DNA from: a virus
Direction: 5' to 3' (one strand)
IMG/VR virus record: IMGVR_UViG_3300008516_000171
Span: 1-32,687 of that record
Length of the DNA stretch: 32,687 nucleotides
Shown here: positions 3,991 through 32,163 of the stretch, piece by piece
Position numbering within the stretch: position 1 is the first letter of the stretch
How the letters are laid out: every line of letters begins with the position of its first letter
The notes under the pieces: generated by a model
Databases searched by the model: none
Told to the model about the DNA's origin: nothing
The model's input: only the letters and a program-made list of their open reading frames with translations
Translations under genes and position numbers: made by a program

Positions 3991-4006
3991 GAATAGACTC
4001 CTTTTT

Positions 4007-5813: not shown

Positions 5814-5817
5814 ATAC

Positions 5818-6201
5818 CTAACCAATTCCACGCGTCGCCACTCCACAGCAAACTTTCTGCCCAAACAACAACCCCTGTCCCTTCGCATCGGCCAGCATCC
5901 TTTTACGTTTATGCGTCTCGCCAAGGACCCGCTTGGCGTCAATCTGCCTGCCCTCTAAATAATCCTTCCAAAGCTGCGAATCTTCGGTAAGCCAGTAGCC
6001 CTGTTGCAGCGTTGCCACTATCATCGAGCCGTTATCTCGCAGGTGCTCTACTATCGCCCGCACGTGCCGCCGCTGGCTCTCTCTGTTGCCGCTCAGCCAA
6101 AGTGCAGCTGCGAGCGCGGCTGCAACCATCGGCCTTTGTGCCTGCTCGAGTACTCGCAGGCACCTCGCCGCTTCTTCAGCCGTTACGTTCGGTCCAGGCA
6201 T
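5818..6201 (-). CDS. Winged-helix-like early protein
   Basis: 127 aa. Residues 8-72 look like a winged helix: two helices (AARCLRVLEQAQRPMVAAAL and a recognition-type RRHVRAIVEHLRDNG), followed by a wing MIVATLQQGYWLTED. The C-terminal part (YLEGRQIDAKRVLGETHKRKRMLADAKGQG) is basic and helical, as in DNA-binding early phage proteins. It follows the 56-aa gene with overlap and precedes the HNH gene by 4 nt. It is likely a DNA-binding regulator or replication accessory of the early operon; the specific role is unknown. Confidence 0.75.
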   Translation of the reverse strand: MPGPNVTAEEAARCLRVLEQAQRPMVAAALAAALWLSGNRESQRRHVRAIVEHLRDNGSMIVATLQQGYWLTEDSQLWKDYLEGRQIDAKRVLGETHKRKRMLADAKGQGLLFGQKVCCGVATRGIG

Positions 6202-7879: not shown

Positions 7880-9010
7880 CTATCCCGCCTTTGCCGCTGC
7901 CTCTTTTGCTTTCGGCAGTTCCGTAACATCACGCGTATGGAACGGCATCCACACCCGGACCGGCAGATTTTGCTGTTCGATTACGGTGATGATCGCAGCG
8001 GCATCTATCTGTTTCTGTTTTACACACTTTCTCGACGTATGCAGCATTGCAACGACCGTGCTGCACGTCCGCAGCCGGCCCGACCTCGGTGTTCTGCATA
8101 TCTTACGCAGCAGGCCGACCGCATCGGCAGTTAATCGGATACCGCCGTATTCATACAAGGCCCGAACGTCCTGGCCCGTGTAAAGTCCGCTATCGCTATC
8201 ATCAGCCAGTTTATCCAGATTCAGGATATAACTCAGTCGGGAAGTAAACTGGTCCAGCGACTCACAGCCCCGCCTGGTTTTGTGCTGCATCACCGTTTTT
8301 AAGAGGTCCGCATTGCCGGCCAGAATTAAGGGACACCTGGCCTTAATCACAATAATTTGACGGAGTTGATTAAGCTGTCTAACCCCCAGGCCGGAGGCCT
8401 CGTCAAGCATAATTATTACGTGGCGATAGACCAGACTCTGTACTATTCGCTGAGCAACCTTTGCCAACGAACCCGCCGAATCAACGCCGACCACGTCGGC
8501 TATGGCTGCAAACATCGTAGTCGATGTCATAGAGTCATCAAGCTCTACGTAAATACTGTTACGGTTTGCCTTTGCATATTGCCGCAGACAGACACTCTTG
8601 CCATGCCCGCCATCACCCACGAGCAGGCCGATTTTCCCCTCGTCGTCACTTAGTACTTCGGTTTGAATGATAAGGGCGCCAATTGCCTTTGCTGCCGTCG
8701 TCTCGATATACGGCTTTTGCCTGACTCGTCTTTCTTTGCGGGTCATTGAATCAATTAACTGTAAGCCTTTATTGACGAGTTCTTCGATACCGGCCTTGGC
8801 CGTATATTTGCCCCCCAGAAATTGGTTGAGTTTAGCAGTGCCTACCCCGAGCATCTGGGCAAGCTTGGTTTGAGTTATGCCCTGCCGCCCGATAAAATCT
8901 CGCAGTTGAACCGCAACCTGAACAGCTACTTTTTTATCGATTGCCATAGGAATCCGTTCCTCTCTGACCTGAGCATCGTGTTCGAGGTCTTTAATAATGT
9001 CATTGTTCAT
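7880..9010 (-). CDS. B: MuB-like transposition ATPase
   Basis: 376 aa. The N-terminal domain (residues 35-75) is a helix-turn-helix (FIGRQGITQTKLAQMLGVGT) as in MuB. The AAA+ domain follows: Walker A GDGGHGKS at 132-139, Walker B VIIMLDEA at 198-205, and a sensor-type LILAGNADLLKTV at 228-240. MuB forms ATP-dependent filaments on target DNA, stimulates MuA and gives target immunity. The start ATG overlaps the stop of gene A (ATGA), so the two are translationally coupled. The length is somewhat greater than in Mu (312 aa) because of a longer N-terminus. Confidence 0.93.
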   Translation of the reverse strand: MNNDIIKDLEHDAQVREERIPMAIDKKVAVQVAVQLRDFIGRQGITQTKLAQMLGVGTAKLNQFLGGKYTAKAGIEELVNKGLQLIDSMTRKERRVRQKPYIETTAAKAIGALIIQTEVLSDDEGKIGLLVGDGGHGKSVCLRQYAKANRNSIYVELDDSMTSTTMFAAIADVVGVDSAGSLAKVAQRIVQSLVYRHVIIMLDEASGLGVRQLNQLRQIIVIKARCPLILAGNADLLKTVMQHKTRRGCESLDQFTSRLSYILNLDKLADDSDSGLYTGQDVRALYEYGGIRLTADAVGLLRKICRTPRSGRLRTCSTVVAMLHTSRKCVKQKQIDAAAIITVIEQQNLPVRVWMPFHTRDVTELPKAKEAAAKAG

Positions 9011-10944
9011 TCGTCTATAAAGTCCAAATCAACGTATTCCGGGTTCCGTTTAAGTAAGGTCAAATCAATATCCAGCACCGTCTCAAGCGATTCGGCACCA
9101 GCCGCTTTTTTAACGGCCTTTACGGTCTCGCGTCGTTTATGCTCGGCTATCTGCCCATCCATCGGCGTCCTGACCGGCCGAATCGAGCAGGCGGCGGCTC
9201 TTTCGGGTGGTTCTTCTGATGCTTCCTGCATCGCCTTGACAGCCAGGTCAGTCAGGTCCATATTGGCTGCTAATCGTGAATTGCGATATTGCCGGGTAAT
9301 TTTTAACGCATGTGATTTTTGACGCATCGCATCACGAAGGGCTTCTTCATTGACCGCTCCGCCGTAGCGTACAAGCTGGTTCTGCTCGGCGATTGTGATA
9401 AGCTTTAGGGTAACGGCATCGTAAATGTAGAGCTGTCGAAGGTCATCCGGGTCATAGGCAACGCGGACCTTCCTACCCTGATGCATCAACAAGTCGGTAT
9501 TATATTGGCCGTACCATATTTTCTTAAATCGCACACCGTTCTTGCCGACTGTTAGTTCCCCGCTCCAGACCCGCATCAGTAAATCCAGCACGCCTTCAAC
9601 CAAAACCCGTCTCGAGGTTCGCTGCGACAGAACCTCAGCCGGTGCTCTGCCGTTCATACCAACGCCCGTATGTGCAGCTGCGTTGTACGCCTCGATAAAA
9701 CGCCCTACCACCTGCGCAAAACTGACCAGGTCGTAAGCTTCCTTGATTGTCTTCTGACTCTTTAACAGGTTATTCAGATAATCGGGTTTGCGCTCGGTAT
9801 CCTTACCGCAATACGTCGGGACCGTCTTTGTGAATTGACGGTCGAGCGTGTCGAAGAACCGTTCAATCGGCTTCGATTGCGGGTGGTATTTAATGGCAAA
9901 TGAAACGCCTACGTCGAGCATTGCGTAAATACCGGCCACCATTGGCTCATCGATATAGCCGGCCTCAAGAGCTCGTCTTTTAACTTTAGTCGTGCCGGTC
10001 CACACCTCGCTATCGTAGTCCCTGCCGTTATCGACCTTTACCGAATCGGGCGGACCGTACTTTTCGATAGCACGCTTCATTGCCAGAAGTATCGTTGTCT
10101 GATTAGGTGATGATGATACGTGAAAGCCGACGAGCGCGCGGCTTCGCATGTCCTGCCAGGCGGTGACCCAGGGCCGAATCCATTTATTGCGATGACGAAT
10201 CCAGCAGTTAAACTGGCTATGGTCACCGACCCAGACCTGGCCGGGCTCAACGCTGTCGGGGTCAATCTGGATGTACGGAGCACATTTGGCTTCATAAGCT
10301 GCCAGGCCCTCGCGGTGGAGTACCTGAACCGGCAGCGGGATATGGTTCTTGACAAAGCGATACATAAAGTGCAGCTGCGGTATCTTCCAGCCCTTCTCCC
10401 GGTCCTTGTTAACGAAACAGATATTCTGCCAGCAGAGCTTAATGCTGAGCCGCTGCTGTGTAAGGTACATAGACTTGAACAGTTCAAAGGCGTCGGGGCT
10501 GAACATCCCGTCAATGAATCTGTCGCCGCCCCGCATATCTACCAGGCCAAGAAGGCCCTGGCCCTTGTAACGCCCAATCCAGCGCTGCAGCGACCGCCTG
10601 GCGAGGCCGGACTGGCGGCTTATGTATAAACTCAGCGCTTCGGTTCGCGTCTTTCCCTGCCGTTCAACTGTTGCAGCGAACTTCTCGAATTCCTTGACAA
10701 CCCCTAACCGTCTCAGGGCCTCATCGCGTTTGTCGGCGGGGACCTCGCCCAGCTCCTGCGAATCGATGGGCTTGTCATCGAGCTTTGTGCGTGCAAGTTT
10801 CGGATGTGCGGTCGTTGGTATCTTCCAGCGGCTGCCGACTTTAATAGCGCTGGGCAGCTTGCCCCGTATGCACATCAATCGAACACGGCTTTCCTTTAAT
10901 CCGAGTAATTTCGCCGCCTTCTTGATATCAATGTGGTTCGTCAC
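9007..10944 (-). CDS. A: MuA-like DDE transposase
   Basis: 645 aa from the GTG at 10944, which overlaps the stop of the 62-aa gene (GTGA) and has AAGG about 10 nt upstream; an ATG at 10968 adds 8 residues. Residues 4-45 form an HTH_17/MerR-like domain (IKKAAKLLGLKESRVRLMC, GSRWKIP). Further helix-turn-helix text lies near residues 100-135 (SRQSGLARRSLQRWIG). The catalytic core shows Asp241 (VGDHSQF), Asp305 (KVDNGRDYD) and Glu361 (PIERFFDTL). The D-to-E spacing of 56 equals that of MuA (336 to 392), and D-D spacing is 64 against 67. A beta-barrel and basic C-terminal tail follow, where MuA contacts MuB. It carries out strand transfer at the ends described here. Confidence 0.95.
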   Translation of the reverse strand: MTNHIDIKKAAKLLGLKESRVRLMCIRGKLPSAIKVGSRWKIPTTAHPKLARTKLDDKPIDSQELGEVPADKRDEALRRLGVVKEFEKFAATVERQGKTRTEALSLYISRQSGLARRSLQRWIGRYKGQGLLGLVDMRGGDRFIDGMFSPDAFELFKSMYLTQQRLSIKLCWQNICFVNKDREKGWKIPQLHFMYRFVKNHIPLPVQVLHREGLAAYEAKCAPYIQIDPDSVEPGQVWVGDHSQFNCWIRHRNKWIRPWVTAWQDMRSRALVGFHVSSSPNQTTILLAMKRAIEKYGPPDSVKVDNGRDYDSEVWTGTTKVKRRALEAGYIDEPMVAGIYAMLDVGVSFAIKYHPQSKPIERFFDTLDRQFTKTVPTYCGKDTERKPDYLNNLLKSQKTIKEAYDLVSFAQVVGRFIEAYNAAAHTGVGMNGRAPAEVLSQRTSRRVLVEGVLDLLMRVWSGELTVGKNGVRFKKIWYGQYNTDLLMHQGRKVRVAYDPDDLRQLYIYDAVTLKLITIAEQNQLVRYGGAVNEEALRDAMRQKSHALKITRQYRNSRLAANMDLTDLAVKAMQEASEEPPERAAACSIRPVRTPMDGQIAEHKRRETVKAVKKAAGAESLETVLDIDLTLLKRNPEYVDLDFIDE

Positions 10945-11129
10945 TTCTCTACCTTCTCGAATCGCCATATATGGCGGTAAAATACTCTGGCCATTCCGTT
11001 ACTATCGATTGCCTCGATGCGGGCCTCGCTGGTCCTTGTTGCCCTGCAGGGACAGCCGAGGGCCTTGGTATCATTCCTTCGTTTCTGATACGCATTAAAC
11101 CATTCCTTTGGCTTAGGTCTGTAGGCCAT
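10941..11129 (-). CDS. Small basic early protein, 62 aa
   Basis: The protein reads MAYRPKPKEWFNAYQKRR, then CPCRAT, and ends FYRHIWRFEKVEK. It is basic with a CPC pair and sits directly upstream of transposase A with a GTGA overlap, 4 nt after the stop of the lysozyme-like gene. It might be a small DNA-binding factor, but nothing identifies its function. Confidence 0.6.
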   Translation of the reverse strand: MAYRPKPKEWFNAYQKRRNDTKALGCPCRATRTSEARIEAIDSNGMARVFYRHIWRFEKVEK

Positions 11130-16318: not shown

Positions 16319-17650
16319 TTGCCGTACCAGGTTCGCTGGATACTCGATGAATCCGAGGCGATGCTCTCCGAAAAGAGCAGACGCATAGGGATGACTTATG
16401 CCGATAGTTACAAGTCCTGCAGGGACCGCAATCGCTCCGACGTTAAGCGAGATTTATGGTTCTCCTCCGCCGACGAATCCGCCGCCTTTGAATATGCCCA
16501 ATACTGCAAGCAATGGTGCGAGTTAATGGACGTGGTATCAAAAGAAATACTCCAGCAGCTCGAGGACGATAGGGGTTACAAATACAATAACTACATCGTC
16601 GAGTTTCCCAACAGCTGCCGCATCAATTGCATGACCAGCAATCCCCGGCGGTTCCGTTCCAAAGGCGGCGACGTCGTACTTGACGAGTTCGCCTGGCACG
16701 ATAAACCGATTGAAATGCTCGATGCCGCTCTGCCGACTACTACCTGGGGATACAATATCCGGATACTTTCCACCCACAACGGGGAATCTTCCGAGTTTAA
16801 CCGTATTGTCCGCCTTATAAACCGCGTTCTGCGAGGGGAGCTCACGTTTGAGGATGCACATACTCTGGCCTGGTCGTTGCATCGCACTACTATTACCGAT
16901 GCAATCGACCAGGGAATAGCCGAGAAGGTCTATCGGCTCGGTCACATCGACCCTGCCGCCCGTGGAAAATTTCTCAAGGCCTGTCGGGCCCGGGCTCGTA
17001 ATGAGGATGCCTGGAAGCAGGAGTATATGTGTGAGCCGTCAAGTGAATCGGCTGCCCTTATTCCGTACGACCTCTATCAGGCCTGTGAAACGACCGACTG
17101 TATTGGGCCCCTTGTCCCTCGAACCGAAGCGCGCAGAGAGTATTATCTCGGCGCCGATATCGGCAGGGAGAAGCACTTAACGGTGTTCTGGGTCTGGGAG
17201 CTGCTCGGCGATATCCTAATCTGCCGCAAGGTAATAAAACTCCACAAGACCCCTTATAAAACCCAGCTTCAGGTCGCTGGTGATTTATTTGCCAATCAAA
17301 ACATTCTGCGAGGATGCATCGACGCTACAGGCATAGGCGACATGCTCGCCGAGACTCTCCAGGACCGCTTCGGCGCCCATCGAGTCGAGAAGGTCAAATT
17401 TACTGCCGGTGTGAAAGAGCACCTGGCCAGCTTAATGGTCCAGGGCTTTGAAGATAAACTCCTGCGGGTGCCGTCCGATGTCGCCGTTCGCGAGAGCTTT
17501 CACAAGGTCCGCAAGACTGTTACGGCCGCCGGTAACGTCCGCTACGATGCAGCCAGTACCGAAGCCGGGCATGCAGATGAATTCTGGTCCGCAGCTTTAG
17601 GCAAGGAAGCGGCCACCAAGGCCGTTGTACCGGAGTGTATTTTATTATGA
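16319..17650 (+). CDS. Large terminase, Mu gp28-like
   Basis: 443 aa from a TTG at 16319 with AAGGGG 7 nt upstream; the frame is open a little further up with no ATG. The ATPase domain shows a Walker A-like SEKSRRIGMT at 17-26 (the Arg-rich form of this family) and Walker B VVLDEFAWH at 119-127, followed by the coupling motif STHN at 151-154. The RNase H-like nuclease has Asp280 (GADIG), Asp335 (CIDATGIGD) and Asp420 (HADEFW). The motor packages DNA from the inserted prophage by headful cutting in Mu-type phages. It is coupled to the portal gene (ATGA). Confidence 0.94.
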   Translation: MPYQVRWILDESEAMLSEKSRRIGMTYADSYKSCRDRNRSDVKRDLWFSSADESAAFEYAQYCKQWCELMDVVSKEILQQLEDDRGYKYNNYIVEFPNSCRINCMTSNPRRFRSKGGDVVLDEFAWHDKPIEMLDAALPTTTWGYNIRILSTHNGESSEFNRIVRLINRVLRGELTFEDAHTLAWSLHRTTITDAIDQGIAEKVYRLGHIDPAARGKFLKACRARARNEDAWKQEYMCEPSSESAALIPYDLYQACETTDCIGPLVPRTEARREYYLGADIGREKHLTVFWVWELLGDILICRKVIKLHKTPYKTQLQVAGDLFANQNILRGCIDATGIGDMLAETLQDRFGAHRVEKVKFTAGVKEHLASLMVQGFEDKLLRVPSDVAVRESFHKVRKTVTAAGNVRYDAASTEAGHADEFWSAALGKEAATKAVVPECILL

Positions 17651-20049
17651 CCGAAGCTATTGTCAAAAGACGTTTAAGTCTCGAGGCCGCCGAGCTGCTG
17701 CGGCTCAGCATCGACCGACAAGTCAAATCTGCCCGCAAGGATTTTACTATAGGTCTGTCGCAGTTTCATCAGCTCTTCGATAAGAGCACCTGGGTCGATG
17801 GTGACGGCAGCTCTACTCCGAGGCGGCCTTACAGTCAGGTTGAATTGGTCTTTCGTTGTGTCGAGGAGTTGGTCAACGCCATTCAGGGTCTGTCTCTGGT
17901 CTTATCGACTGCGGACGAGAAGATAATCGAATCTGGTCCGCAGTACGACATACTGTTCAACAACCCGTTGATGAGCTGGGAGAAGTTCATCATTCAGACA
18001 GTCGGTCACTACGCACTGAGCCGTGATGTCTTCTGGGTCTTTACTGATATGGTCGGCAGTCGGCCCAAGGAGATCGCCGTCGTCTCCGGCGCCCAGATGC
18101 ACGCCCTTACTCACAATCGCCGAACCGACGGTGAGCTTATCGGCTGGGAATTTCGCGGTGCCGGCGGCCAGCGGGCCAACTATGCCCTCGACGAAGTTTA
18201 TCAGCTCAAAAACTTCAATCCGTACGACCGCTTCCACGGTGTCGGTCCCACGTCCGCCGCTAAATTAAGTATCAATTACAGCTATGCCGCCTCGCTGTTT
18301 AATACGAGCGCTCTGGACAACGCCGCCGAACCAGGTCTTATCTTGACCAGCGACCGGGGTCTAACGCCGGAGGAGGTTAGTTTCTTGCGCGAACAGTTTG
18401 ACACCCGTCATCGCGGCGCCGCCCACGCCAAGCGCACGGCCGTATTGACGGGCGGTATGGATGTCAAAACTATGGCGTTAAAGATGACCGATATGCAGCT
18501 TGCCGAAATCTCACAAGTAAAGGACAAACGAATCTGTACGACCTTCGGTGTGCCTCCGGAGATTGTCGGTTTGGGCACCGAGGCCCAGTACGCCCAGGGC
18601 CCCGCCCAGAAGGCCTTTATGTTCAATACGATAATACCGTTGGGCAATCTGATTGCCGGCGAGCTCTCTCGCGGTGTTCTTTCGTGTTTTTATTCGACCG
18701 ACGCCCGCAGCGTTGAGCTTTCCGCCGCCAAGTTCTATGGTGGTATGAGAGCCAAGTCGCTCGGCTCTCGCCGTTTTTATCGCGATGCCCGCAGCAAGGC
18801 CGCCGCCGCCAAATTAAAAATATTTGCATGGTTCGATTACGACCAGCACCCTATCGTTCAGGAGCACAAAAAGGAGACCGCTGAAAAAGTATTCAAATTT
18901 ACGCAGAGCGGTGTCACCTTGAACGATTTGATAGAGACCCACGACCTTCCCTACCAGGCACGGCCCTGGGGCGATGAATGGTGGATTGGTATGGGTCAGG
19001 TCCCCGCCAGTTATACGCTCGAAGCAGGCCTTGAAGGTCTCACCGGTCCATCCCTGCCGGAAGGCGAGCCCTCCGGCGAAGAGGAAGGCAAGGCCGCAGC
19101 CGGGACACGAGCTCCGCTTCACGCTTCACGAGAAAAGGCCGATGAGCAGCAGCAACTTCGTCTCTGGCGCAATTGGGTCGTTTCCTGGGCGGGCATCGAG
19201 CGGGAATATAAAGAAGCGCTTCGCAAATTCTTCATTCGGCAGCAGCGAATACTTATCAAAAAACTCAAAGAGGCTCTGACTGAATCTTCCTCTGCGAAAT
19301 ACGAGCGACGAGCGACAAGCGACGAAGTGATAGCCAGAATCGTTTTCGATTTGAAAGCTGAAGACGGCAAGCTCAGGGTAATCAATCAGACCTTCTTCGG
19401 AAAGGCATCCGAATTGGGCGCCCGCCAGTCGCTCTCCGAGGTCCTCGGCATCAGCGGTGACGCTATGGCCGAAGCGGTCGCCCAGGTCAAAAGGAGGCCT
19501 TTAATCAGGGCCGCCCTGACCCGCCAGTCCCACAATATAACGAAGGTAAATTCCACAACTCAAAAGCTCGTTGCCAATCAATTAACCAAGGGCCTCGAGG
19601 CGGGCGAAGGTCTAAACGACCTTGCTTCTCGAATTGGTAAAACACTCGGCTCGAACAGGTCAAGGGCGTTATCTATCGCCCGCACCCAGACTGCCGGCGC
19701 CGTCGGCACCGGTCGGCACGCCGGTATGCAGCAGGCGGGCGTTAAAAAGAAAAGCTGGGTAACTTCCGGTGATGAAAATGTCCGCGATAGTCATCGCAAT
19801 GCTGGTTCCCGTTATGCCGACGGTATCGACCTCAATATACCATATCAGGTCGGCGGTGACATGCTGATGTATCCGGGTGACCCTGCCGGCTCGGCAGCCG
19901 AAATTGTCAACTGCCGATGTGTATCTATCGCACGTGCCGCCGCCGGCAAAATATTCGATTCGGCATATTACGCCAATATGCAATTTTACTCTTATAACGC
20001 TCTGCAAAAGCTCTCTGTAAAACAGGGACAAAAAGACAAGGACAAATAA
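17647..20049 (+). CDS. Portal protein fused to a MuF minor head domain
   Basis: 800 aa from the ATG at 17647 that overlaps the terminase stop. Residues 50-430 are an HK97-type portal: YALSRDVFWVFTDM, LDEVYQLKNFNPYDRFHGVG, the typical KDKRICTTFGVPPEIVGLG and PLGNLIAGELSRG. A Pro/Glu/Ala-rich linker (about 470-500) follows. The C-terminus is a MuF/SPP1 gp7-type domain: ALSIARTQTAGAVGTGRHAG, ENVRDSHRNAG, GDPAGSAAEIVNCRCV. In Mu these are separate genes, and the Mu portal is of another family (DUF935). Heptad-repeat DNA is translated in the linker region (19114-19132 and 19292-19325). The protein forms the portal ring, and the MuF part probably goes with the injected or internal head proteins. 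Confidence 0.93.
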   Translation: MTEAIVKRRLSLEAAELLRLSIDRQVKSARKDFTIGLSQFHQLFDKSTWVDGDGSSTPRRPYSQVELVFRCVEELVNAIQGLSLVLSTADEKIIESGPQYDILFNNPLMSWEKFIIQTVGHYALSRDVFWVFTDMVGSRPKEIAVVSGAQMHALTHNRRTDGELIGWEFRGAGGQRANYALDEVYQLKNFNPYDRFHGVGPTSAAKLSINYSYAASLFNTSALDNAAEPGLILTSDRGLTPEEVSFLREQFDTRHRGAAHAKRTAVLTGGMDVKTMALKMTDMQLAEISQVKDKRICTTFGVPPEIVGLGTEAQYAQGPAQKAFMFNTIIPLGNLIAGELSRGVLSCFYSTDARSVELSAAKFYGGMRAKSLGSRRFYRDARSKAAAAKLKIFAWFDYDQHPIVQEHKKETAEKVFKFTQSGVTLNDLIETHDLPYQARPWGDEWWIGMGQVPASYTLEAGLEGLTGPSLPEGEPSGEEEGKAAAGTRAPLHASREKADEQQQLRLWRNWVVSWAGIEREYKEALRKFFIRQQRILIKKLKEALTESSSAKYERRATSDEVIARIVFDLKAEDGKLRVINQTFFGKASELGARQSLSEVLGISGDAMAEAVAQVKRRPLIRAALTRQSHNITKVNSTTQKLVANQLTKGLEAGEGLNDLASRIGKTLGSNRSRALSIARTQTAGAVGTGRHAGMQQAGVKKKSWVTSGDENVRDSHRNAGSRYADGIDLNIPYQVGGDMLMYPGDPAGSAAEIVNCRCVSIARAAAGKIFDSAYYANMQFYSYNALQKLSVKQGQKDKDK
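19114..19325. repeat. Heptad-repeat copies translated within the portal-MuF linker
   Basis: At 19114-19132 the strand complementary to the gene reads as gtgaagcgtgaagc, the unit seen at 26400-26460. At 19292-19325 the text tgcgaaatacgagcgacgag matches the start of the junction repeat at 23425. Both stay in frame and encode the polar PLHASREKAD and SAKYERRATSDE segments. Confidence 0.55.
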
Positions 20050-20050
20050 A

Positions 20051-20782
20051 ATGGAGCCTAAAATGAAATTTTTCTACCCGCACGTAAAAGCAATCAATGC
20101 AGAAAATCGCCGGATCACGGTCTGCATCTCGATGGACGAAATCGACCGGCACAATGAACGCATAGAAATCAGTGCTATAGCCGAGGCCCTGAAGGGCTAT
20201 ACAGCCAATTCTGTCGTCCTCGGCGATCACCAGCATCGATTAGCGACCGGCGAATCATCTGTCATCGGCCATGCACCGCCCGATTCATTCAAAGTCCTCG
20301 CCGATGCTGTGGATATGGACATCGTGTTTTCTACCACAAAAAACGCTGAAACCTATTGGATCAACTTTAGGGACGGCCATCAGAAGGCGGTCTCTATCGG
20401 CTTCATCGATTTGGAATGGCGATTCGAGAAAATTGACGGACGAAAAATCTATGTCACCACAAAACTTGAGCTGCTCGAACTAAGCTGCGTGGCCGTACCC
20501 GCCAATCGAGGAGCACTAATCAAGGCCAAGGGAATGTTTGACCGGCAGGCCGTTGAAAAAGACGAACAGCCATCGGCTTTTCCCGACAAACTCAACTCGG
20601 TTTTGGAGGGCATCGAGGACATCAAATCGCTTTTAATCACCGATTCGGACAGATTCGCAGAAGAGCTCTTGCTCGGTGAGCATTCTGGTCCATCTGTTCT
20701 TGCCGGTGACAATAATGCCGAGCAATCGTTTGAACGAATGAAAAATGCGTTAAATTTTGGAGATAAAGACAATGTTGACTAA
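20051..20782 (+). CDS. HK97-type prohead protease (S78/U35)
   Basis: 243 aa; a second ATG at 20063 has GGAG 6 nt upstream and may be the true start. The protease domain (residues 1-160) shows VVLGDHQHRLATGE with the catalytic His at 60 or 62, KAVSIGFI with Ser115 as nucleophile, and LLELSCVAVPANRGALI, the standard end of S78 proteases. The remainder is a scaffold-like helical region (KLNSVLEGIEDIKSLLITDS). It cuts the capsid delta domain during head maturation. The end overlaps the capsid gene start by 11 nt. Confidence 0.92.
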   Translation: MEPKMKFFYPHVKAINAENRRITVCISMDEIDRHNERIEISAIAEALKGYTANSVVLGDHQHRLATGESSVIGHAPPDSFKVLADAVDMDIVFSTTKNAETYWINFRDGHQKAVSIGFIDLEWRFEKIDGRKIYVTTKLELLELSCVAVPANRGALIKAKGMFDRQAVEKDEQPSAFPDKLNSVLEGIEDIKSLLITDSDRFAEELLLGEHSGPSVLAGDNNAEQSFERMKNALNFGDKDNVD

Positions 20783-22157
20783 CGAACAGATGGAAAAACG
20801 CCTGAAAGAGACCGCCGATATGGTGGAGAAGGCGGTAGGCGACATCAATAAGAATCTCGCCACTAAGGCCGAGGTGCTCGAGCTTATCAATACGAGGACC
20901 GGTGAGGACGGTGAGCTCGTCAAAAACAGCAGGGCCGACATTGACACCCTTAACACTGGTGTCGCAGAAGTCAAGACGGTCATCGATAAGTTGAATAAGG
21001 ACCTCCGCGACCTCAATCGCCGGAAGCTCTCGCAGCCGCCGTACTCCTCGGTCAGCGGCTATCGCGGCTACTTCTCGTCACCCCAGGAAGCCAAGGCCTT
21101 CGCCCTGCTGATTATGGCAGCCACGATGGGCGGTCACAGCCGGTTCAAAGACAGGGTCGAGCAAATCAACAAATCCCTCGAGGAGATGGGAATTGAGCCG
21201 TACCTGGTAGATGGCAACGGCCATAAGGCAATGGTCGGCTCAGGCCAGGTCTCCGGCTCTCTGGTAACGGTCGAGCAAATCCCCAGCATCCTCATGATGA
21301 TTGAGACCTACGGCAAGTACAGGGCCAACGCCCTGGTCATGCCGATGGGTGCGGGCCAGACTACCCAGCCAAAAGTTGACGGTCTGTTGACCGGCTACGT
21401 ACCTGGTGAGGGCGGCACTATTACTGAGACCGAACCGACAATTGCTGTAATAACCCTGACACCCAGGACACTCAATTTTCTGACTGGTTATTCGATGGAA
21501 TTGGAGGAAGATTCCCTGGTCGCTCTTGGTGAGATGCTGGCCGGCCTGTTCGCCCGCTCGATGGCCTATTACGAGGACCTGATTGGCTTTTTGGGCGACG
21601 GCACCAGCACCTATTTCGGTATGACCGGAATCACCGGCGCACTGCGGGCGGTCGATGCTACTATTGCCAATATCAAATCCCTCGTTGTCGGTGCCGGCAA
21701 TGCCTACAGCGAGCTGACTCTGGCTAACTTTGAGTCTCTCGTTGGAACCCTGCCCGAATATAGCGATGACGGTGACGTCAAGTGGTATGCGCATCGTTAC
21801 TTTTTCTGGACGGTTATGGTAAAGCTGGCCCTGGCAGCCGGCAGCGGTACTGCGGCCGAAATCCTTACCGGCCAGGCAGTCAAGCAGCGGACTTACCTGG
21901 GCTATCCGGTCGAGTTCACCCAGGTTATGCCCAAGGCCGAGGCCAACAGTCAGATCTGTGCACTTCTGGCGAATCTCCGTCAGGGTGCAATGCTCGGAAC
22001 CAGGGGCGGTATTGAGTTCGCCCAGAGCTCCGAGCGCTACTTCGAAAAAGGCGTCATCGCCGTCAGGGGCCGCGACCGTATCGCCGTCAATGCACACGGT
22101 GTCGGCAACACGATCAATGCTGGCCCTATCTGCGGACTGATTACCGCTGCCAGCTAA
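20772..22157 (+). CDS. Major capsid protein, HK97 fold
   Basis: 461 aa from the ATG at 20772 with GGAG 9 nt upstream. Residues 1-85 form an N-terminal coiled-coil delta domain (LKETADMVEKAVGDINKNLA, TVIDKLNKDLRDLNRRK), a scaffold normally removed by the protease encoded just before. The core follows: GSLVTVEQIPSILMMIETYG, YSMELEEDSLVALGEMLAGL, MAYYEDLIGFLGDGTSTYFG, GYPVEFTQVMPK, and the C-terminal VIAVRGRDRIAVNAHGVG, all typical of Phage_capsid HK97 proteins. It builds the icosahedral shell. This differs from Mu's own T-type capsid gene. Confidence 0.95.
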   Translation: MLTNEQMEKRLKETADMVEKAVGDINKNLATKAEVLELINTRTGEDGELVKNSRADIDTLNTGVAEVKTVIDKLNKDLRDLNRRKLSQPPYSSVSGYRGYFSSPQEAKAFALLIMAATMGGHSRFKDRVEQINKSLEEMGIEPYLVDGNGHKAMVGSGQVSGSLVTVEQIPSILMMIETYGKYRANALVMPMGAGQTTQPKVDGLLTGYVPGEGGTITETEPTIAVITLTPRTLNFLTGYSMELEEDSLVALGEMLAGLFARSMAYYEDLIGFLGDGTSTYFGMTGITGALRAVDATIANIKSLVVGAGNAYSELTLANFESLVGTLPEYSDDGDVKWYAHRYFFWTVMVKLALAAGSGTAAEILTGQAVKQRTYLGYPVEFTQVMPKAEANSQICALLANLRQGAMLGTRGGIEFAQSSERYFEKGVIAVRGRDRIAVNAHGVGNTINAGPICGLITAAS

Positions 22158-22248
22158 TCGCAGTTCGTTCGAGGGTGATGAAGAGTGTTGTGTTAATAAT
22201 GGTCGTTCCTAATGCGTAATTAGGACCTGAAATTTTAAGGAGAATAAA
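22158..22248. other. Short gap with a hairpin
   Basis: TCCTAAT (22207-22213) pairs with ATTAGGA (22219-22225) around gcgta. The ribosome site AAGGAG of the next gene follows. The preceding gagggtgatgaagagtgtt is nearly repeated at 11671, also outside the well-folded coding text. No gene is seen. Confidence 0.45.
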
Positions 22249-22722
22249 ATGGATTTACGAGCTATTTTGAAAATGCTGAAGCTCAAAACGGTCACGCCTC
22301 CGCAGCTCAAGGACGACGGCGATTTCGCCGGCAATACCTACATTGACACCCAGGGCCTGGGTGCAATTCTGTTTTTGCTTATGGTCGGGACTACCGATGT
22401 TGCAGCCGGTGACGCTATCGGCTCTACCGCCGAAGGGACCGCCCCGCTCGTCGAAGAATGTGACACCATCGGTGGCAGCTATACGGCCGTTCCCAGCGCG
22501 GTCCTGGCCGATGCCATCCAGTATAATGAGGACGACAAGCTGTTTGGTATTTATGTCGATTTGACCAAGACCCATAAGCGCTATATGCAGGTTCAGGCCC
22601 CGCACTCGGCGGCTGGCGCCGTGAACGGCTCGAACCTGGCCATTCTGGCCCTCGGCTTTCCGGTCGATGAAAGTCCCCGCGATGCCGCCGGTATGGGCCT
22701 GACTGAATTGATTGAGGCGTAA
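22249..22722 (+). CDS. Head decoration/accessory-type protein
   Basis: 157 aa with AAGGAG before the ATG. The sequence GLGAILFLLMVGTTDVAAGD, DDKLFGIYVDLTKTHKRYMQ and LAILALGFPVDESPRDAAG follows a common phage pattern: a beta-sandwich with a central strand, a KRY strand, then a short C-terminal tail with Pro. Such proteins lie right after the major capsid gene in many tailed phages and are thought to be head-surface or connector accessories. No precise family is assigned. Confidence 0.72.
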   Translation: MDLRAILKMLKLKTVTPPQLKDDGDFAGNTYIDTQGLGAILFLLMVGTTDVAAGDAIGSTAEGTAPLVEECDTIGGSYTAVPSAVLADAIQYNEDDKLFGIYVDLTKTHKRYMQVQAPHSAAGAVNGSNLAILALGFPVDESPRDAAGMGLTELIEA

Positions 22723-22724
22723 TA

Positions 22725-22790
22725 TAGCGTTTAGCATATAGTGTTCTCGCCCCCTTTTCTGTCTTCAACAGAAGACAAGGGGGCGAGAAT
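22725..22790. repeat. Repeat remnant and bulged C/G hairpin, copy 3
   Basis: The text tagcgtttagcatata (22725-22740) matches the start of the repeat at 28413. Then an 11-bp outer stem forms between TTCTCGCCCCC (22744-22754) and GGGGGCGAGAA (22779-22789). The inner stem TGTCTTC (22760-22766) pairs with GAAGACA (22771-22777), with loop aaca and a TTTTC left bulge. No U-run follows, so simple termination is unlikely. This is the best-paired copy of the family. Confidence 0.65.
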
Positions 22791-22835
22791 AAACAATGAA
22801 CAATAAACAACGAGCTAATTTAGAAAGGTAAAGAT

Positions 22836-23312
22836 ATGTGGATTAAAATGTTAAGGGACCAGGTGGGTCCGGACGGCATATTCTTGAAAGGCCAGACCGT
22901 CTCTCTGCCTACCAATATACTTAAGAAACTGGCCCCCGATTCTTACGTCGAGGTAGAGATGGACGAGGAGGCGATGCTGCGGCTCGGCGTAGAGGACCGG
23001 CTCCGTCACCTGGACTCCGAACTGGTAACACTTGACGCCGCTGTCGAATCGACCAAAGACCGGCTTGCCGACCTTTATCGAAGACGCAAAGCCATCCGGA
23101 GTAAGGTCAAACAGGCCAACGATGAGCTCAAACAGGCTGCCGAAGCCAAGGCCGAGACCGACGCCGTGCCGGTCTCGAAAGAACCGGATAAGCAGAAACA
23201 GGAGTCAAAAAATGAAGGTGGAAATCAAGAAGAATTATCGCGGCCCCCTGGGAACGTTCAGGAAGGGCCAGGCGCCGGACCTGCATCCTCGAACAGTCCA
23301 GCTTCTGCCTGA
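22836..23312 (+). CDS. Coiled-coil head/connector accessory protein
   Basis: 158 aa with GAAAGG upstream. Residues 1-40 (LRDQVGPDGIFLKGQTVSLP, TNILKKLAPDSYVEV) form a small beta domain like those of phage head accessory proteins. Residues 50-110 form a long coiled coil (LDAAVESTKDRLADLYRRRK). The C-terminus is low-complexity and Gln/Pro/Ser-rich. The N-terminal domain is clearly similar to the next small protein, suggesting duplication. Function is unknown. Confidence 0.72.
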   Translation: MWIKMLRDQVGPDGIFLKGQTVSLPTNILKKLAPDSYVEVEMDEEAMLRLGVEDRLRHLDSELVTLDAAVESTKDRLADLYRRRKAIRSKVKQANDELKQAAEAKAETDAVPVSKEPDKQKQESKNEGGNQEELSRPPGNVQEGPGAGPASSNSPASA

Positions 23313-23397
23313 AGGTGTGGCAAAAGCGGTAACTGAAAGTCCCAGAGACAAGCAGATGCGTCCGGACAAAACCGGTTCCGATTACCGAACAAAGTAA
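23212..23397 (+). CDS. Small protein paralogous to the preceding N-terminal domain, 61 aa
   Basis: The ATG at 23212 has CAGGAG 7 nt upstream and lies inside the preceding gene, overlapping it by 101 nt. The protein starts KVEIKKNYRGPLGTFRKGQA, then TVQLLPEGVAKAV. It matches the G-x-F-x-KGQ-x-x-x-L pattern of residues 9-30 of the upstream protein. The long reading frame upstream of this ATG is an out-of-frame shadow. It is probably a small head or connector protein. Confidence 0.68.
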   Translation: MKVEIKKNYRGPLGTFRKGQAPDLHPRTVQLLPEGVAKAVTESPRDKQMRPDKTGSDYRTK

Positions 23398-23400
23398 GGC

Positions 23401-23460
23401 ATAGCGTACAGCGTAAAACGAGCTGCGAAATACGAGATACGAGATACGAGCTACGAGATA
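23401..23460 (+). repeat. Heptad repeat block before the connector gene
   Basis: The block reads tagcgtacagcgtaaaacgag and then units of tacgaga (period 7) up to ATAAATG. It fills the whole junction, and no Shine-Dalgarno sequence is present. Confidence 0.75.
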
Positions 23461-23461
23461 A

Positions 23462-24412
23462 ATGAGCGAACTGATTGCAAAGACAGATTCTGCCGTCGCG
23501 GTCGATGACAGTTTGACGGTCCTTATCGACTGGGTGAATATCGAGCAGGTCTCCGGTTTTACTATTATAGTCGAGAACGCCACCGGCGGCTCGGCCAACG
23601 ACATTACCGATGTGCAAATCGACACATCGGACGATGGCGGTATAACGCCTTCTCTGGACCAGCACGCCGGCGTCCCTGCCGTCCCTGTTGCCTCAGGTTC
23701 GGCTAAGGTAGGTATATTCGCCGAGACGGCGAAATTTTTGCGTGTACGGGCCGTCTGTGCCGCCGGTGAGGATACTACGGCCAAGGCCGTCCTTTTGGCT
23801 GATTCGTCAACAGGGCGAATCTGCACGCTCACCGATGTCAAGGACCGGCTCGGCATAACCAATACCGATTTTGATGAGGCAATCAATCGTATAATTTTAG
23901 GGCTTGAGGCAATTTTTAACGGCCATACCAATCGCACGCTGCTCGTTACAGCTACCGACGTCACTGATTACTATGCCGGTATGGGCGGCATCCTGCAAAT
24001 AAAGCGATACCCGCTCGTATCTATCACTTCGATTAAGGAAGCGTTGGACTTTGATTTTGCCTCGGCGACTGCCCTGATTGCAGACACCGATTACCGCCAG
24101 TTAACCGGCGGCGAGCGTGGTATGCTCTATCGAATCTATAAGAGCTGGTCCCAGGTCCCCGACTCCATACAAATCATCTATCGCGGCGGATACTGCTCCG
24201 CCGGCCAGGCCCCCGGCGAAGGCGAGCATCAATTACCGGCGGACTTGCGAGAGGCTGCAATTGAGCAGGCATCGTTTATCTTCAAGCGCAAAGACGATAT
24301 CGGCCTTTCCGGAGTCGGCTTCGAAGGGGGCTCAATAAATAAGTTCAGTGCGATAAAATTACTGCCTATGGTCGAAGACATCCTGAAAAAATACAGGAGG
24401 CCTTCGTTATGA
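23462..24412 (+). CDS. Head-tail connector protein with an extra N-terminal beta domain
   Basis: 316 aa. Residues 1-115 are a beta-sandwich (DSLTVLIDWVNIEQVSGFTI, FLRVRAVCAAGEDTTAKAVL) similar in style to head-decoration proteins. Residues 118-310 form a connector of the gp6 type: TLTDVKDRLGITNTDFDEAI, NRIILGLEAIFNGHTNRTLL, DYYAGMGGILQIKRYPLVSI, then PADLREAAIEQASFIFKRKD. The second domain is the ring that joins portal and tail in HK97-like phages. The fusion of the two is uncommon. Its ribosome site is replaced by repeat DNA; the end overlaps the next gene. Confidence 0.82.
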   Translation: MSELIAKTDSAVAVDDSLTVLIDWVNIEQVSGFTIIVENATGGSANDITDVQIDTSDDGGITPSLDQHAGVPAVPVASGSAKVGIFAETAKFLRVRAVCAAGEDTTAKAVLLADSSTGRICTLTDVKDRLGITNTDFDEAINRIILGLEAIFNGHTNRTLLVTATDVTDYYAGMGGILQIKRYPLVSITSIKEALDFDFASATALIADTDYRQLTGGERGMLYRIYKSWSQVPDSIQIIYRGGYCSAGQAPGEGEHQLPADLREAAIEQASFIFKRKDDIGLSGVGFEGGSINKFSAIKLLPMVEDILKKYRRPSL

Positions 24413-28475: not shown

Positions 28476-30611
28476 ATGACTTTAATTGATGCAACAAGTC
28501 TGCAGCGGACAGCCCAGCGGCTCATAGTAGAGGCCAGGGCCGGCTCCGGCTCGCCCCCTTCTTATGAGCCTAACTGGCAGCCGGTCTGGGGGGCCGCCAT
28601 AGACCGCATCGTTATCAACGCCGGCTCCAAGCCCTCCTCCGCCCTTATCTGGTTCCCCGATTTGCGCTGGGACGCCTCGCCGGGCCTGGGCTCCTCGGAC
28701 ATGGTCAGGATTAGGACCGATGAAGGTTCGGTTTTGTTCGTCGGTTTTATCGTGGGCAGAAAGCCCGCCTTCTCCGGCGGCACCGAGCAGGGCAAGGCAT
28801 TCGAGCGCAACGTTATTCACCTGGCCGACCATCGATGGCTTATGGCCGCCAGCTCAGCCCTTCACGGCCAGTACGGACGAAGTCCTGACGATTATTTTAA
28901 TTATGGCCTGCCTTCTCAGACCGCCGACCCTACCAGCTGTAGCTACTTCAGCGGACGGCGTATGACCTTTAACGAAAACGGTCGGCCCAATAAAGACCCT
29001 GCCGAATTAAGTCTTTACGATTCGGCGGGTGTGTTTTTGTGTACGACCTATATCTTTGCCGACCCGCAAATGGACGAATACTGGACGGCCAGGGAGATGC
29101 TCTGTCACTGTCTCTCGATTCTCTGGAACGGGGCCTATGATTACTTTCCTATCACCAATCCTTCGGCCCTTTTAGGGCTGGACCATTCCGATTTCGATAA
29201 GGTCTTAAATCACGTTGTAGTCGAAGGTCTGAATGTCGTCGAGGCCGTCACTCTTATCTGCTCTCAGCTCGGCTGGTCGCTCCGGGAGGAATATTATTCG
29301 AACGGCTCAGTCGGCCTCGTCTTTTACAAGGTCGGGACGGCAACCTCTTACGTACGGGACGAAACTAATCCTATAATCCTGCACCGCCTCTACGCCCCCG
29401 CCGTCGGCGAGCAAATAACCGGCGCCGTAGCGGCCGGTCAAAAAATGCTCTGGGCGTTAGAGCTGGATGAGGATATTACCAAGGTGGTTAATGCCCCTGT
29501 CGGCTTAGGCGCTCCCGACCGCTTCGAGTTTACCGCCGAATTGGTCCCCGGCTGGCTTGATGCCGATATTATCCCCGACACCTCGGACGGTAACGCCAAT
29601 CTTTTTTTCACCGAGGCCGACCTTCAGGAGATGACCGACCCCAATTCTAAAAGTTATTTTAAATATTATCACCCTCGCGGCGCCGCCTTCCGCCACAAAG
29701 TCGGCCGCAAGTGGGTCTTGAATGAGACCGGCCGGTATTCTTCCGCTCGTTACGACAGGGGAGTCCCTTTTGATTTTCTTACCGTCATTCCGCCCAAGTA
29801 TGTGCTTGATATGTACGGTAAGAAATTGTTTGGCCCCTTCGCCCGGCAGCTCCTGAACGCCCTCACCCAGGACCCCGAAGGTATCAATACAATCGGCATT
29901 AAAGTAGAGTTCTCTTTCGATGGTGGCGCCACCTGGCAGTTAATCCCCGCCGCTATTATCTCTTTGGAGAAGGAGGCCGGCATCTACCTCGCCGAGGCAA
30001 ATCTGGCGGAAATGGTCGATGGGCAAAATCGAGAAATATCCGGTGGGCCTCTTGACGGTGTGCAGGTCAATTACTGGACGTCCTTATGTGACGATAAGCT
30101 TACTGTCGCATCATTCAAGCTTGGGCAATGGAAGACCCGCGTCCGAGTCACCGCAAGCATACAGCTCGACCAGCGGCTGGTTCGCTATTCGGAGCCGTCC
30201 TGGGCGTCGGGCTCGCCTTTTTTCCATCGCGAAATCTACGACTTTTCCGAGCGGTACGGTATCGTTAAAAGGACCGATTCCTCGGTCCTCTCAGGCCTTC
30301 CGGCGTACGAGATGGATATGTCGGGCATTATGCAGTCTCATTTAGATGCGATTCGCCGGGCCAATGAGGACATGAGCGTCTCCGGACTTTTCACCCTCGA
30401 GCGGCTGTGGCTCGGGGACGGCTCCGGTTTCGTCGAGTTCGCCCCCGGCGACTGCATCGAGGCGATAGACGGCCGCTGTTACAATCTTACGGTCTCTACC
30501 GGCTCGGAAATCCTGCATCCGGAGATTATTCAAATCATTTATCTGCCGGAAAAGCAGAAGCAGCAGCTTATCACCCGCGACCTTCGCTTCGCGGAAATTG
30601 GTGAAGCGTAA
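28476..30611 (+). CDS. Tail hub/Tal-type baseplate protein
   Basis: 711 aa. The N-terminus (residues 10-130: TAQRLIVEARAGSGSPPSYE, INAGSKPSSALIWFPDLRWD, DMVRIRTDEGSVLFVGFIVG) has the pattern of tail-tip hub proteins that begin with a beta-barrel like gp27/Tal. A middle part (VLNHVVVEGLNVVEAVTLIC, SQLGWSLREEYYSNGSVGLV) follows the hub fold. The C-terminal half has several beta domains (FDGGATWQLIPAAIISLEKE, RLWLGDGSGFVEFAPGDCIE). It closes the tail tip; no lysozyme or protease motif is seen. Function follows from position and size. Confidence 0.8.
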   Translation: MTLIDATSLQRTAQRLIVEARAGSGSPPSYEPNWQPVWGAAIDRIVINAGSKPSSALIWFPDLRWDASPGLGSSDMVRIRTDEGSVLFVGFIVGRKPAFSGGTEQGKAFERNVIHLADHRWLMAASSALHGQYGRSPDDYFNYGLPSQTADPTSCSYFSGRRMTFNENGRPNKDPAELSLYDSAGVFLCTTYIFADPQMDEYWTAREMLCHCLSILWNGAYDYFPITNPSALLGLDHSDFDKVLNHVVVEGLNVVEAVTLICSQLGWSLREEYYSNGSVGLVFYKVGTATSYVRDETNPIILHRLYAPAVGEQITGAVAAGQKMLWALELDEDITKVVNAPVGLGAPDRFEFTAELVPGWLDADIIPDTSDGNANLFFTEADLQEMTDPNSKSYFKYYHPRGAAFRHKVGRKWVLNETGRYSSARYDRGVPFDFLTVIPPKYVLDMYGKKLFGPFARQLLNALTQDPEGINTIGIKVEFSFDGGATWQLIPAAIISLEKEAGIYLAEANLAEMVDGQNREISGGPLDGVQVNYWTSLCDDKLTVASFKLGQWKTRVRVTASIQLDQRLVRYSEPSWASGSPFFHREIYDFSERYGIVKRTDSSVLSGLPAYEMDMSGIMQSHLDAIRRANEDMSVSGLFTLERLWLGDGSGFVEFAPGDCIEAIDGRCYNLTVSTGSEILHPEIIQIIYLPEKQKQQLITRDLRFAEIGEA

Positions 30612-30633
30612 TGCGAAATACGAGATACGAGTT
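30612..30633 (+). repeat. Short heptad repeat block
   Basis: The text tgcgaaatacgagatacgag leads to ttATGAG and fills the 22-nt junction. It is the shortest copy at a gene junction. Confidence 0.65.
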
Positions 30634-31107
30634 ATGAGTGCAAATATTACCATAGAATTTGTAGTGCCGGCCGGTCACCAAAAGGGTGACTATGCCAGGT
30701 TGCATGGTAACGGCGGCTCCGGCGATATCGACTGGGACGGGCCCGTCTCCGGTATGATTTACAGGCTGTTCCCCAACGGCGCTGGCATCTTCGGCTGGGG
30801 CCACGCCCCCTGGGGCCGTTTCCGCTGGGGGCATGCCCATAGCATGAGATGTTCGGGCTGGGGACACGCCCCCTGGGGTCACTATCCCTGGGGTCATGGT
30901 TCGGCCCTGATAACGGCGAGGTATAAAGTTGATTATTGCGGTGATTATAAGTTCGGCTTCGGATGTTACGATGCCGCCGGCAATCTGCACGAGGGCAGCC
31001 CGGAAGAGGTGACCGTCAACGTCCACATCGCCCCGCCCGCCCCGACCGGCCTGGTAAAAAATAGCTACAACCCCGAAACCGACGTCCTAATTCTGGATGC
31101 GGCTTAA
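30634..31107 (+). CDS. Tail-tip protein with Trp-Gly-His repeats
   Basis: 157 aa from the ATG at 30634. The N-terminal 50 residues form beta text (SANITIEFVVPAGHQKGDYA, DIDWDGPVSGMIYRLFPNGA). Residues 54-89 contain a remarkable block: two GWGHAPWG units about 21 residues apart, each followed by a further WGH (RFRWGHAH and HYPWGHGS). The C-terminal 60 residues are an Fn3-like strand set (ALITARYKVDYCGDYKFGFG, then VNVHIAPPAPTG). It is the last structural gene. The His/Trp-rich block could bind metal or carbohydrate, like the HxH iron knots of tail spikes; this is inference. Confidence 0.75.
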   Translation: MSANITIEFVVPAGHQKGDYARLHGNGGSGDIDWDGPVSGMIYRLFPNGAGIFGWGHAPWGRFRWGHAHSMRCSGWGHAPWGHYPWGHGSALITARYKVDYCGDYKFGFGCYDAAGNLHEGSPEEVTVNVHIAPPAPTGLVKNSYNPETDVLILDAA

Positions 31108-31158: not shown

Positions 31159-31232
31159 ACCGGCGCGGGCGGACACTCGGTTTAACCGCCTGCTCTGGCA
31201 GTCCCCGCTGCCAGGCATTTTTTCGCGCCGGT
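31159..31232 (+). ncRNA. Three-way-junction structured RNA upstream of the methyltransferase
   Basis: P1 is 9 bp: ACCGGCGCG (31159-31167) with CGCGCCGGT (31224-31232). P2 is 5 bp: GGCGG (31168-31172) with CCGCC (31186-31190), loop 13 nt. P3 is 7 bp: CTGGCAG (31195-31201) with CTGCCAG (31208-31214), loop tccccg. The junction strands are 0, 4 and 9 nt, the last being gcatttttt. All pairs in the three stems are Watson-Crick. The strand is assumed from the downstream gene; the structure could also form on the other strand. It matches no RNA class recognised here; a leader regulator, an attenuator or a recombination hairpin are options. Confidence 0.6.
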
Positions 31233-31282: not shown

Positions 31283-32035
31283 ATGGCATGGATGCTCATA
31301 CCGACAACAGGTTACGAACGCTCAGTCTCTTTTCCGGAATCGGAGGTATTGACCTCGGCCTCCGGCAATGGTGTAAAACTGTTTGCTATTGTGAAATTGA
31401 CCCATACGCCATCGGGGTACTCATCAAGAACATGGTTTGTGGCACTTTGGATGTTGCGCCTATTTGGGACAATATTAAAACTTTCGGACAGGCCGAAGCT
31501 AAACAGTTTTTTCCGGTCCACTGTATTACCGCAGGATTCCCTTGTCAGGACATCAGTGGACTCGGGAAAAGAGCAGGTATCAAAAAAGGGACGCGGTCGG
31601 GATTGTTCTATGAACTCATGCGTGTTGTTCGCCTGGTTAAACCCCAAGTTATCTTCCTGGAGAACGTATACAGATTGCTCCCGCGAGGGATGGACATTGT
31701 ACTCCGAGAGCTTTCCAAAGCAGGGTATAATGCAGTGTGGAAAGTGTTATCGGCAGGCCAGCTTGGATACCCCCATCGCAGGAAAAGAGTCTGGATACTT
31801 GCCTACCCCTGTAGCAAGCGATTTAATAGGAATGTGGTGCTCCGCACAGCTTCTTGTAAAAGGCAAAACAAAACGCAGATCAGGAGCTTCAATCAGAATG
31901 AATTTGTGCTACTTACTGGCAAAGTGGCACCTGCAAAATGGCGGAGTAAAGGATTCAATAATCCCCAACCCATCTTTGTACGAAGTGATAATAGGATTCC
32001 CTCTCAACTGGACAAGCTTAGACTTAAAACCTTAG
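31283..32035 (+). CDS. Overlapping second-frame ORF in the methyltransferase gene
   Basis: 250 aa from an ATG 5 nt before the methyltransferase start, open in the other frame for 753 nt. From about residue 88 the text resembles a recurrent class of phage proteins annotated beside or within cytosine methylases: SLVRTSVDSGKEQ, LNPKLSSWRTYTDCSREGWT, ESFPKQGIMQCGKCYR, GYLPTPVASDLIG, IIPNPSLYEVIIGFPLNWTS. The segment coding FPCQDIS in one frame codes SLVRTSV here, and ILAYPCSKR overlaps YLPTPVASD. The N-terminal 85 residues are less convincing, so the real start may be internal. Its function is unknown; it may also be a shadow kept open by constraint on the main gene. Confidence 0.45.
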   Translation: MAWMLIPTTGYERSVSFPESEVLTSASGNGVKLFAIVKLTHTPSGYSSRTWFVALWMLRLFGTILKLSDRPKLNSFFRSTVLPQDSLVRTSVDSGKEQVSKKGRGRDCSMNSCVLFAWLNPKLSSWRTYTDCSREGWTLYSESFPKQGIMQCGKCYRQASLDTPIAGKESGYLPTPVASDLIGMWCSAQLLVKGKTKRRSGASIRMNLCYLLAKWHLQNGGVKDSIIPNPSLYEVIIGFPLNWTSLDLKP

Positions 32036-32163
32036 GTAATACTGTTGTCCCACAGTGCGCAGGATTGGCTTTTAAGCTCTTACTGGAAGAAACTTTTGTA
32101 TCCAGAAGAAAACGTGGACGTAAATTGATAATAGCAAATTACCCGCTGCCGAAGCGGCGGTAG
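31288..32163 (+). CDS. C5-cytosine DNA methyltransferase (Dcm family)
   Basis: 291 aa from the ATG at 31288; a weak GAGAA site lies 8 nt upstream. Motifs are in order: I, SLFSGIGGIDLGL (13-25); IV, GFPCQDIS with the catalytic Cys; VI, ENV; VIII, QLGYPHRRKRVWILAYP; a short variable target-recognition stretch; and X, LGNTVVPQCAGLAFKLL. The end is basic (RRKRGRKLIIANYPLPKRR). It transfers methyl from S-adenosylmethionine to C5 of cytosine in phage DNA, presumably protecting it from host restriction. It occupies the right-end place where Mu has com/mom. The target-recognition region is short for this family, and almost the whole gene up to 32035 is overlapped by a second frame. Confidence 0.92.
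   Translation: MDAHTDNRLRTLSLFSGIGGIDLGLRQWCKTVCYCEIDPYAIGVLIKNMVCGTLDVAPIWDNIKTFGQAEAKQFFPVHCITAGFPCQDISGLGKRAGIKKGTRSGLFYELMRVVRLVKPQVIFLENVYRLLPRGMDIVLRELSKAGYNAVWKVLSAGQLGYPHRRKRVWILAYPCSKRFNRNVVLRTASCKRQNKTQIRSFNQNEFVLLTGKVAPAKWRSKGFNNPQPIFVRSDNRIPSQLDKLRLKTLGNTVVPQCAGLAFKLLLEETFVSRRKRGRKLIIANYPLPKRR

Follow-up and report, generated by a model that had tools for sequence, protein, structure and literature searches.

A phage cytosine methyltransferase locus with two overlapping reading frames, probably a two-polypeptide enzyme

Lee et al. 1995 reportedly found that the small-subunit gene of the methyltransferase M.EcoHK31I lies within the large-subunit gene, in another reading frame, and that both polypeptides are needed in vitro. 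M.EaeI is grouped with M.EcoHK31I (YGGCCR). C5-methyltransferases consist of a large domain with the catalytic motifs and a small domain with motif IX and the variable region, and the enzyme can reassemble from separate fragments (PMC3404938). The large subunit of M.EcoHK31I comprises motifs I-VIII, motif X and the predicted recognition domain, and its small subunit comprises motif IX; M.AquI is another natural two-subunit C5-methyltransferase (PMC3404938). In mycobacteriophage methylases, the ShiLan element is an out-of-frame HNH endonuclease (PMC11855218). Here, we analysed a viral cytosine methyltransferase gene in which two long reading frames overlap on the same strand.

The locus and its two reading frames

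The window, that is, the whole stretch of DNA analysed, comprises the 32,687 nucleotides of virus record IMGVR_UViG_3300008516_000171. Its gene content, which includes an HNH endonuclease, assigns it to a Mu-like phage, and the regions concerned are as follows:

4959-5942, minus strand: Mu-like phage gene region, listed with the transposition and head regions
7880-9007, minus strand: DNA transposition protein, MuB-like (phrog_296)
9010-10968, minus strand: transposase (phrog_310)
16319-24409, plus strand: terminase, portal and major head protein

The methyltransferase lies at the right end of the window, the position that mom occupies in Mu. A T run and an intrinsic-terminator-like hairpin stand directly upstream, at 31194-31215, so the two frames may have their own promoter. 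An ORF at 30598-31107 contains a tryptophan-glycine-histidine-rich repeated stretch (GWGHAPWG/FRWGHAHS/PWGHG) and is possibly a tail-end protein. The methyltransferase frame is called alpha below, and the frame at +1 relative to it is called beta:

31288-32163, plus strand: alpha ORF, C5-cytosine methyltransferase, 291 amino acids (PF00145, TIGR00675, phrog_363)
31321-31347, plus strand: alpha motif I, LSLFSGIGG (translation; invariant alignment columns)
31534-31557, plus strand: alpha motif IV, GFPCQDIS; +1 reading DSLVRTSV (translations, alignment)
31657-31668, plus strand: alpha motif VI, LENV; +1 reading (S)WRT (translations, alignment)
31768-31800, plus strand: alpha motif VIII, YPHRRKRVWIL (translation, alignment)
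32032-32055, plus strand: alpha motif X, LGNTVVPQ, at whose start beta terminates (translations; beta stops of relatives)
31283-32035, plus strand: beta ORF, 250 amino acids from the first ATG, frame +1 relative to alpha (phrog_1008)
31520-32032, plus strand: conserved part of beta, from about codon 80 to the end (alignments; stop depletion in relatives)
31610-31756, plus strand: beta N-terminal core, FAW..SSWRT..YSESFPKQG..CGKCYRQ (AlphaFold2, predicted beta strands)
31799-31822, plus strand: start of the beta LPTPVASD module (translation, alignment)
31967-32017, plus strand: beta motif IX, NPSLYEVIIGFPLNWTS (near-invariant or invariant N, P, E, G, P and T in the alignment)

The translations and the PF00145 match bear out the coordinates, the two open frames offset by +1 and the motif readings given in a preliminary description of this DNA. 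Alpha matched PF00145 (E=3.5e-35), TIGR00675 (1.8e-33) and phrog_363 (4.5e-53). Besides these profile matches, alpha contains motifs I, IV (PCQ), VI (ENV), VIII (RxR) and X. Its full complement is motifs I-VIII and X without motif IX, which is found in beta rather than in the same polypeptide, and HhaI and HaeIII align to alpha over motifs I-VIII only. The alpha variable region is polar, with a hydrophobic fraction of.19 (canonical recognition regions,.30; alpha IV-VIII,.38), and conservation of the alpha frame across it is weak. The DNA of motif VIII reads RVWILAYP in alpha and SGYLPTP in +1, and the DNA before motif X reads IPSQLDKLR in alpha and GFPLNWTS in +1.

The +1 frame had been described as a protein type recurrent in phages, and the searches agreed: the phrog_1008 profile matched residues 80-183 of the window beta (E=6.7e-9; other betas down to 1e-64), and the window +1 ORF matched 41 phage records by tblastn. 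A profile search found no Pfam family for beta, a PDB sequence search returned chance matches only, and an IMG/VR search with the window beta alone gave no match because this beta is too divergent. Up to about codon 80, the +1 ORF is open but not conserved. Overall AlphaFold2 confidence was low for the window beta and for a typical beta (pTM 0.35 and 0.31), and neither of these low-confidence models gave a PDB structural match; the N-terminal core was mostly of high confidence, with 10-residue pLDDT means of 70-93 over model residues 31-90.

Between motifs VIII and IX, beta carries LPTPxxxD modules. The window has a single module, the aligned viral sequences have as many as four, and certain phages exceed that number. 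The modules occupy the position of the target-recognition domain, but the module region is only moderately hydrophobic (0.228 versus 0.298 in canonical recognition regions). The most conserved element of beta, NPxFVEWLMGFPxGWT, is a form of motif IX (canonical examples for comparison: RRLTPRECARLMGFP). A motif-IX-like pattern was present in 203 of 254 beta ORFs versus 4 of 254 alpha ORFs.

Candidate starts for beta are the ATGs at 31283 and 31292, beside the start of alpha, or an internal codon. Upstream of motif VI, the open +1 frame contains a start codon in 198 of 200 non-redundant relatives (127.7 expected) and an ATG in 187 (67.9 expected). In scans of the relatives for Shine-Dalgarno sequences and start codons, neither the ribosome-binding site nor the start of beta proved to be conserved. 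The start-codon enrichment is compatible with internal initiation.

Selection on the two frames

Loci were gathered with alpha alone, by searching viral contigs and bacterial genomes with only the beta profile, and from phage records. As a null model for a mere shadow of the methyltransferase, each alpha gene had its synonymous codons permuted, with protein and codon usage fixed. In the window, the +1 frame contains no stop over 164 codons from motif IV, compared with 6.3 expected, and none of 500 permutations was open. Among 94 distinct relatives picked by the alpha frame only, with no beta-fetched loci, 92 had no stop in the +1 frame between motif IV and the sequence immediately preceding motif X (2.1 expected); below 50% GC this frame was open in 31 of 32 such alpha-selected loci (0.06 expected).

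We also counted stops by region in 175 non-redundant alpha genes, a set that includes loci fetched with beta. The +1 frame had 12 stops over motifs IV-VIII (465 expected), 0 in the variable region (96 expected) and 13 before motif X (95 expected), while motifs I-III had 320 against 320 expected, and the +2 frame of the same genes was near the null over IV-VIII (578 versus 645 expected). The depletion begins just before motif IV, and beta stops cluster just before motif X. Similarity to beta exceeded the null by 80 (IV-VIII) and 88 (pre-X) standard deviations, figures that are not probabilities because the sequences are related. With beta fixed instead, stops in the alpha frame numbered 0 versus 455, 9 versus 383 and 4 versus 56 expected, which shows that alpha is also held open throughout the overlap. 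In 51 ordinary bacterial C5-methyltransferases used as a control, the +1 frame had 653 stops versus 629 expected and was open in none. The permutation tests and this control therefore indicate that the overlap is a property of this clade and not of C5-methyltransferases. In three relatives (L003, L013 and L088), alpha is broken by a single in-frame stop between VIII and X and beta is open.

The codon phase of substitutions differed along the gene. In 62 independent close pairs, rates at alpha codon positions 1/2/3 followed the usual pattern in motifs I-III (.108/.061/.322) and after motif X (.133/.068/.406), and were.118/.066/.234 over IV-VIII. Before motif X they were.250/.100/.116, and beta is better kept there. 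In beta-aligned pairs, which were filtered on beta identity and so favour beta, rates at beta codon positions 1/2/3 were.150/.113/.316 in the modules and.058/.054/.178 in motif IX; over IV-VIII they were.047/.170/.092, which is the pattern of alpha. These phases, together with the polar and weakly conserved alpha variable region, indicate that alpha is the master frame over the catalytic motifs and beta over the recognition region. Selection in the methylase frame only, named in the preliminary description as evidence against a coding second frame, was not the pattern found, since the beta phase rules the variable and motif IX regions.

Judged by these codon statistics, both ORFs are protein-coding in this gene family; they show that both frames are under selection and that the alpha/beta arrangement is kept across many phages and prophages. 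Because the searches gave no close relative of the window pair, this evidence of selection concerns the family rather than the window copy.

Forms of the locus among relatives and the proposed enzyme

The great majority of relatives have the nested form seen in the window. In a split form, alpha stops beyond motif VIII, and the beta frame continues past motif IX to include motif X (YungJamal gp7/gp6, Orcanus gp40/41, Upyo gp54/53 and ArV1 067a/067b). In a single-ORF form, the LPTP modules and motifs IX and X are in frame with motifs I-VIII (L346, L391, L382, L383, Ramsey gp69, Babsiella gp54, prophiGD91-2 gp27 and Gudmit gp58). Enzymes of this single-protein kind, with the beta sequence placed in frame between motifs VIII and X, occur in some actinobacteria and phages. 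L383 has stops in its +1 frame, and there the sequence WPxxG...LPTP...motif IX stands outside any overlap (beta profile positions 66-216, domain E=1e-13), so that homologues of the second frame do exist clear of methylase shadows; the C-terminal domain of L383 matched 568 phage records by tblastn, 437 of them Mycobacterium phages. In Ramsey gp69 and Babsiella gp54, MMGWPAGWV is collinear with canonical motif IX, directly before motif X, with weak scores.

Intermediate arrangements were also observed. Ramsey gp69 has its first module in +1 and its later modules in frame 0, so modules can belong to either chain. L074, L151 and L156 have motifs IX and X in alpha and the modules in +1. In L047 and L053 (Llama gp74/gp75), an indel moves alpha and beta together, and because it shifts both frames, the N- and C-terminal halves of alpha lie in successive frames.

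Several further observations concern annotation and neighbouring genes. Both nested ORFs of Escherichia phage K1ind2 (L410, gp32/gp33) were annotated as DNA methyltransferase by the depositors, and Babsiella gp55 (L409) is a +1-frame fragment inside gp54. Of 5426 complete E. coli genomes, 68 contain DNA resembling a portion of the methyltransferase gene of K1ind2, annotated as DNA cytosine methyltransferase among the matches listed. In L111, a second, more distant cytosine methyltransferase ORF (3537-4230) directly follows the nested pair.

We consider it highly likely that the locus encodes a two-polypeptide C5-methyltransferase, with alpha as the catalytic large domain and beta as an overprinted target-recognition small domain. 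Alpha would contribute the AdoMet site, the PCQ nucleophile, ENV and RxR, followed by a poorly conserved polar linker and motif X. Beta would consist of the N-terminal beta-strand core, at least one LPTP module at the target-recognition position, and motif IX. It would be translated separately from its own start and bind alpha to give an active heterodimer; because it would thereby supply target recognition and motif IX, the two chains would form one active enzyme. This enzyme would modify phage DNA, probably against host restriction. Weighing against this reading are the low-confidence beta models with no PDB match, the scans in which no start signal for beta was conserved, the only moderate hydrophobicity of the module region, and the published placing of the predicted M.EcoHK31I recognition domain in the large subunit. 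The preliminary description had suggested overprinting or a frame-switched target-recognition region, and both ideas gain support from selection on +1, from motif IX and the LPTP modules in beta, and from the single-ORF relatives with these elements in frame.

Other readings were weighed against this one. In all 254 sequences first classified with profiles of both frames, the beta match overlaps a methyltransferase in +1 and none lies apart, and several beta motifs are +1 readings of alpha motifs, as would be expected of untranslated text that looks family-like only as dictated by the methyltransferase. Stand-alone beta genes were likewise absent from the loci fetched with the beta profile, where in-frame fusions were found instead. 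An artefact of this kind is nevertheless hardly credible: stop counts and beta similarity lie far beyond the alpha-fixed nulls, canonical enzymes have no comparable +1 openness, and in the variable region and at motif IX, substitutions follow the beta phase. Beta copies also occur in frame outside any overlap, and beta is not merely a shadow because single-ORF enzymes carry its sequence in frame. That beta is an independent protein, such as a regulator or an anti-restriction factor, which merely overlaps the methyltransferase gene would agree with its own conserved N-terminal core and its lack of a Pfam family. We regard this as very unlikely, since beta ends in the motif IX that alpha is missing, and since single-ORF enzymes have it fused in frame between VIII and X and split ones have it joined to X.

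Programmed frameshifting would require no separate beta start, as a +1 shift out of alpha would yield an alpha-beta fusion. Beta has no clear start signal, frames swap in relatives L047, L053, L141 and L164, and methyltransferases are among the frameshifted genes in PRFect (PMC10885494). However, a shift after motif VIII predicts a free +1 frame over IV-VIII, where strong constraint was found instead, and a shift before motif IV would cost catalytic motifs. Constraint on +1 begins at motif IV rather than past a shift site, alpha stays open in its own frame to motif X, and 198 of 200 relatives have the start codon described above. We therefore judge frameshifting improbable, and the idea that a shift near 31780 is needed for one longer enzyme is not supported: alpha keeping motif X in its own frame, with beta constrained through IV-VIII, fits two separate proteins.

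As to the origin of the two-polypeptide enzyme, it is possible, if rather doubtful, that the target-recognition small domain was born by overprinting on the catalytic domain, in its +1 frame, and later moved in frame behind motif VIII. The WPxxG and LPTP motifs of beta would then be +1 readings of motifs VII-VIII, and a new +1 protein would have become a specificity subunit before appearing in frame in actinophage and actinobacterial enzymes. If true, an essential domain of an enzyme could be traced to a de novo origin within the gene of that same enzyme. The nested, split and single-ORF series makes the origin and frame-switching of this domain directly testable.

In double-stranded DNA phages, it is rare for two conserved proteins to be encoded by a long overlap on the same strand. 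The alpha/beta overlap extends well over 100 codons and is spread over phages and prophages from many groups of bacteria, and such loci are often annotated as only one of the two genes. By implication, tests of many "orphan" phage cytosine methyltransferases would fail if the annotated ORF were cloned alone.

Comparison with known systems

M.EcoHK31I, compared here by its published description (PMC3404938), is the closest precedent. As in that enzyme, the large polypeptide of the window has motifs I-VIII and X without IX, and the small polypeptide has motif IX (NPSLYEVIIGFPLNWTS). The predicted recognition domain of M.EcoHK31I has been put in the large subunit, whereas selection and the in-frame relatives place the recognition region of the window pair in beta. 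The small subunit of M.AquI contains the distal variable region and motifs IX-X, whereas motif X of the window stays in alpha; the Corndog, Orcanus and Upyo relatives, whose small part carries motif X, are closer to M.AquI.

The family phrog_1008, annotated "DNA methyltransferase", is the beta family, and its annotation is silent on the alternative frame inside another methyltransferase gene. The ShiLan element is an inserted homing endonuclease and is unrelated, while the second frame of the window would encode part of the methyltransferase. The literature searched (open-licence papers) contained no description of this overprint across phages. The principle is already known, as in M.EcoHK31I; the breadth, the selection in both frames, the recognition region in beta and the frame-swapped forms appear not to have been described. 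Ramsey gp69, Babsiella gp54, L383 and L346 carry the same modules and motif IX between VIII and X, but unlike the window they have the modules in the methyltransferase frame, within one polypeptide.
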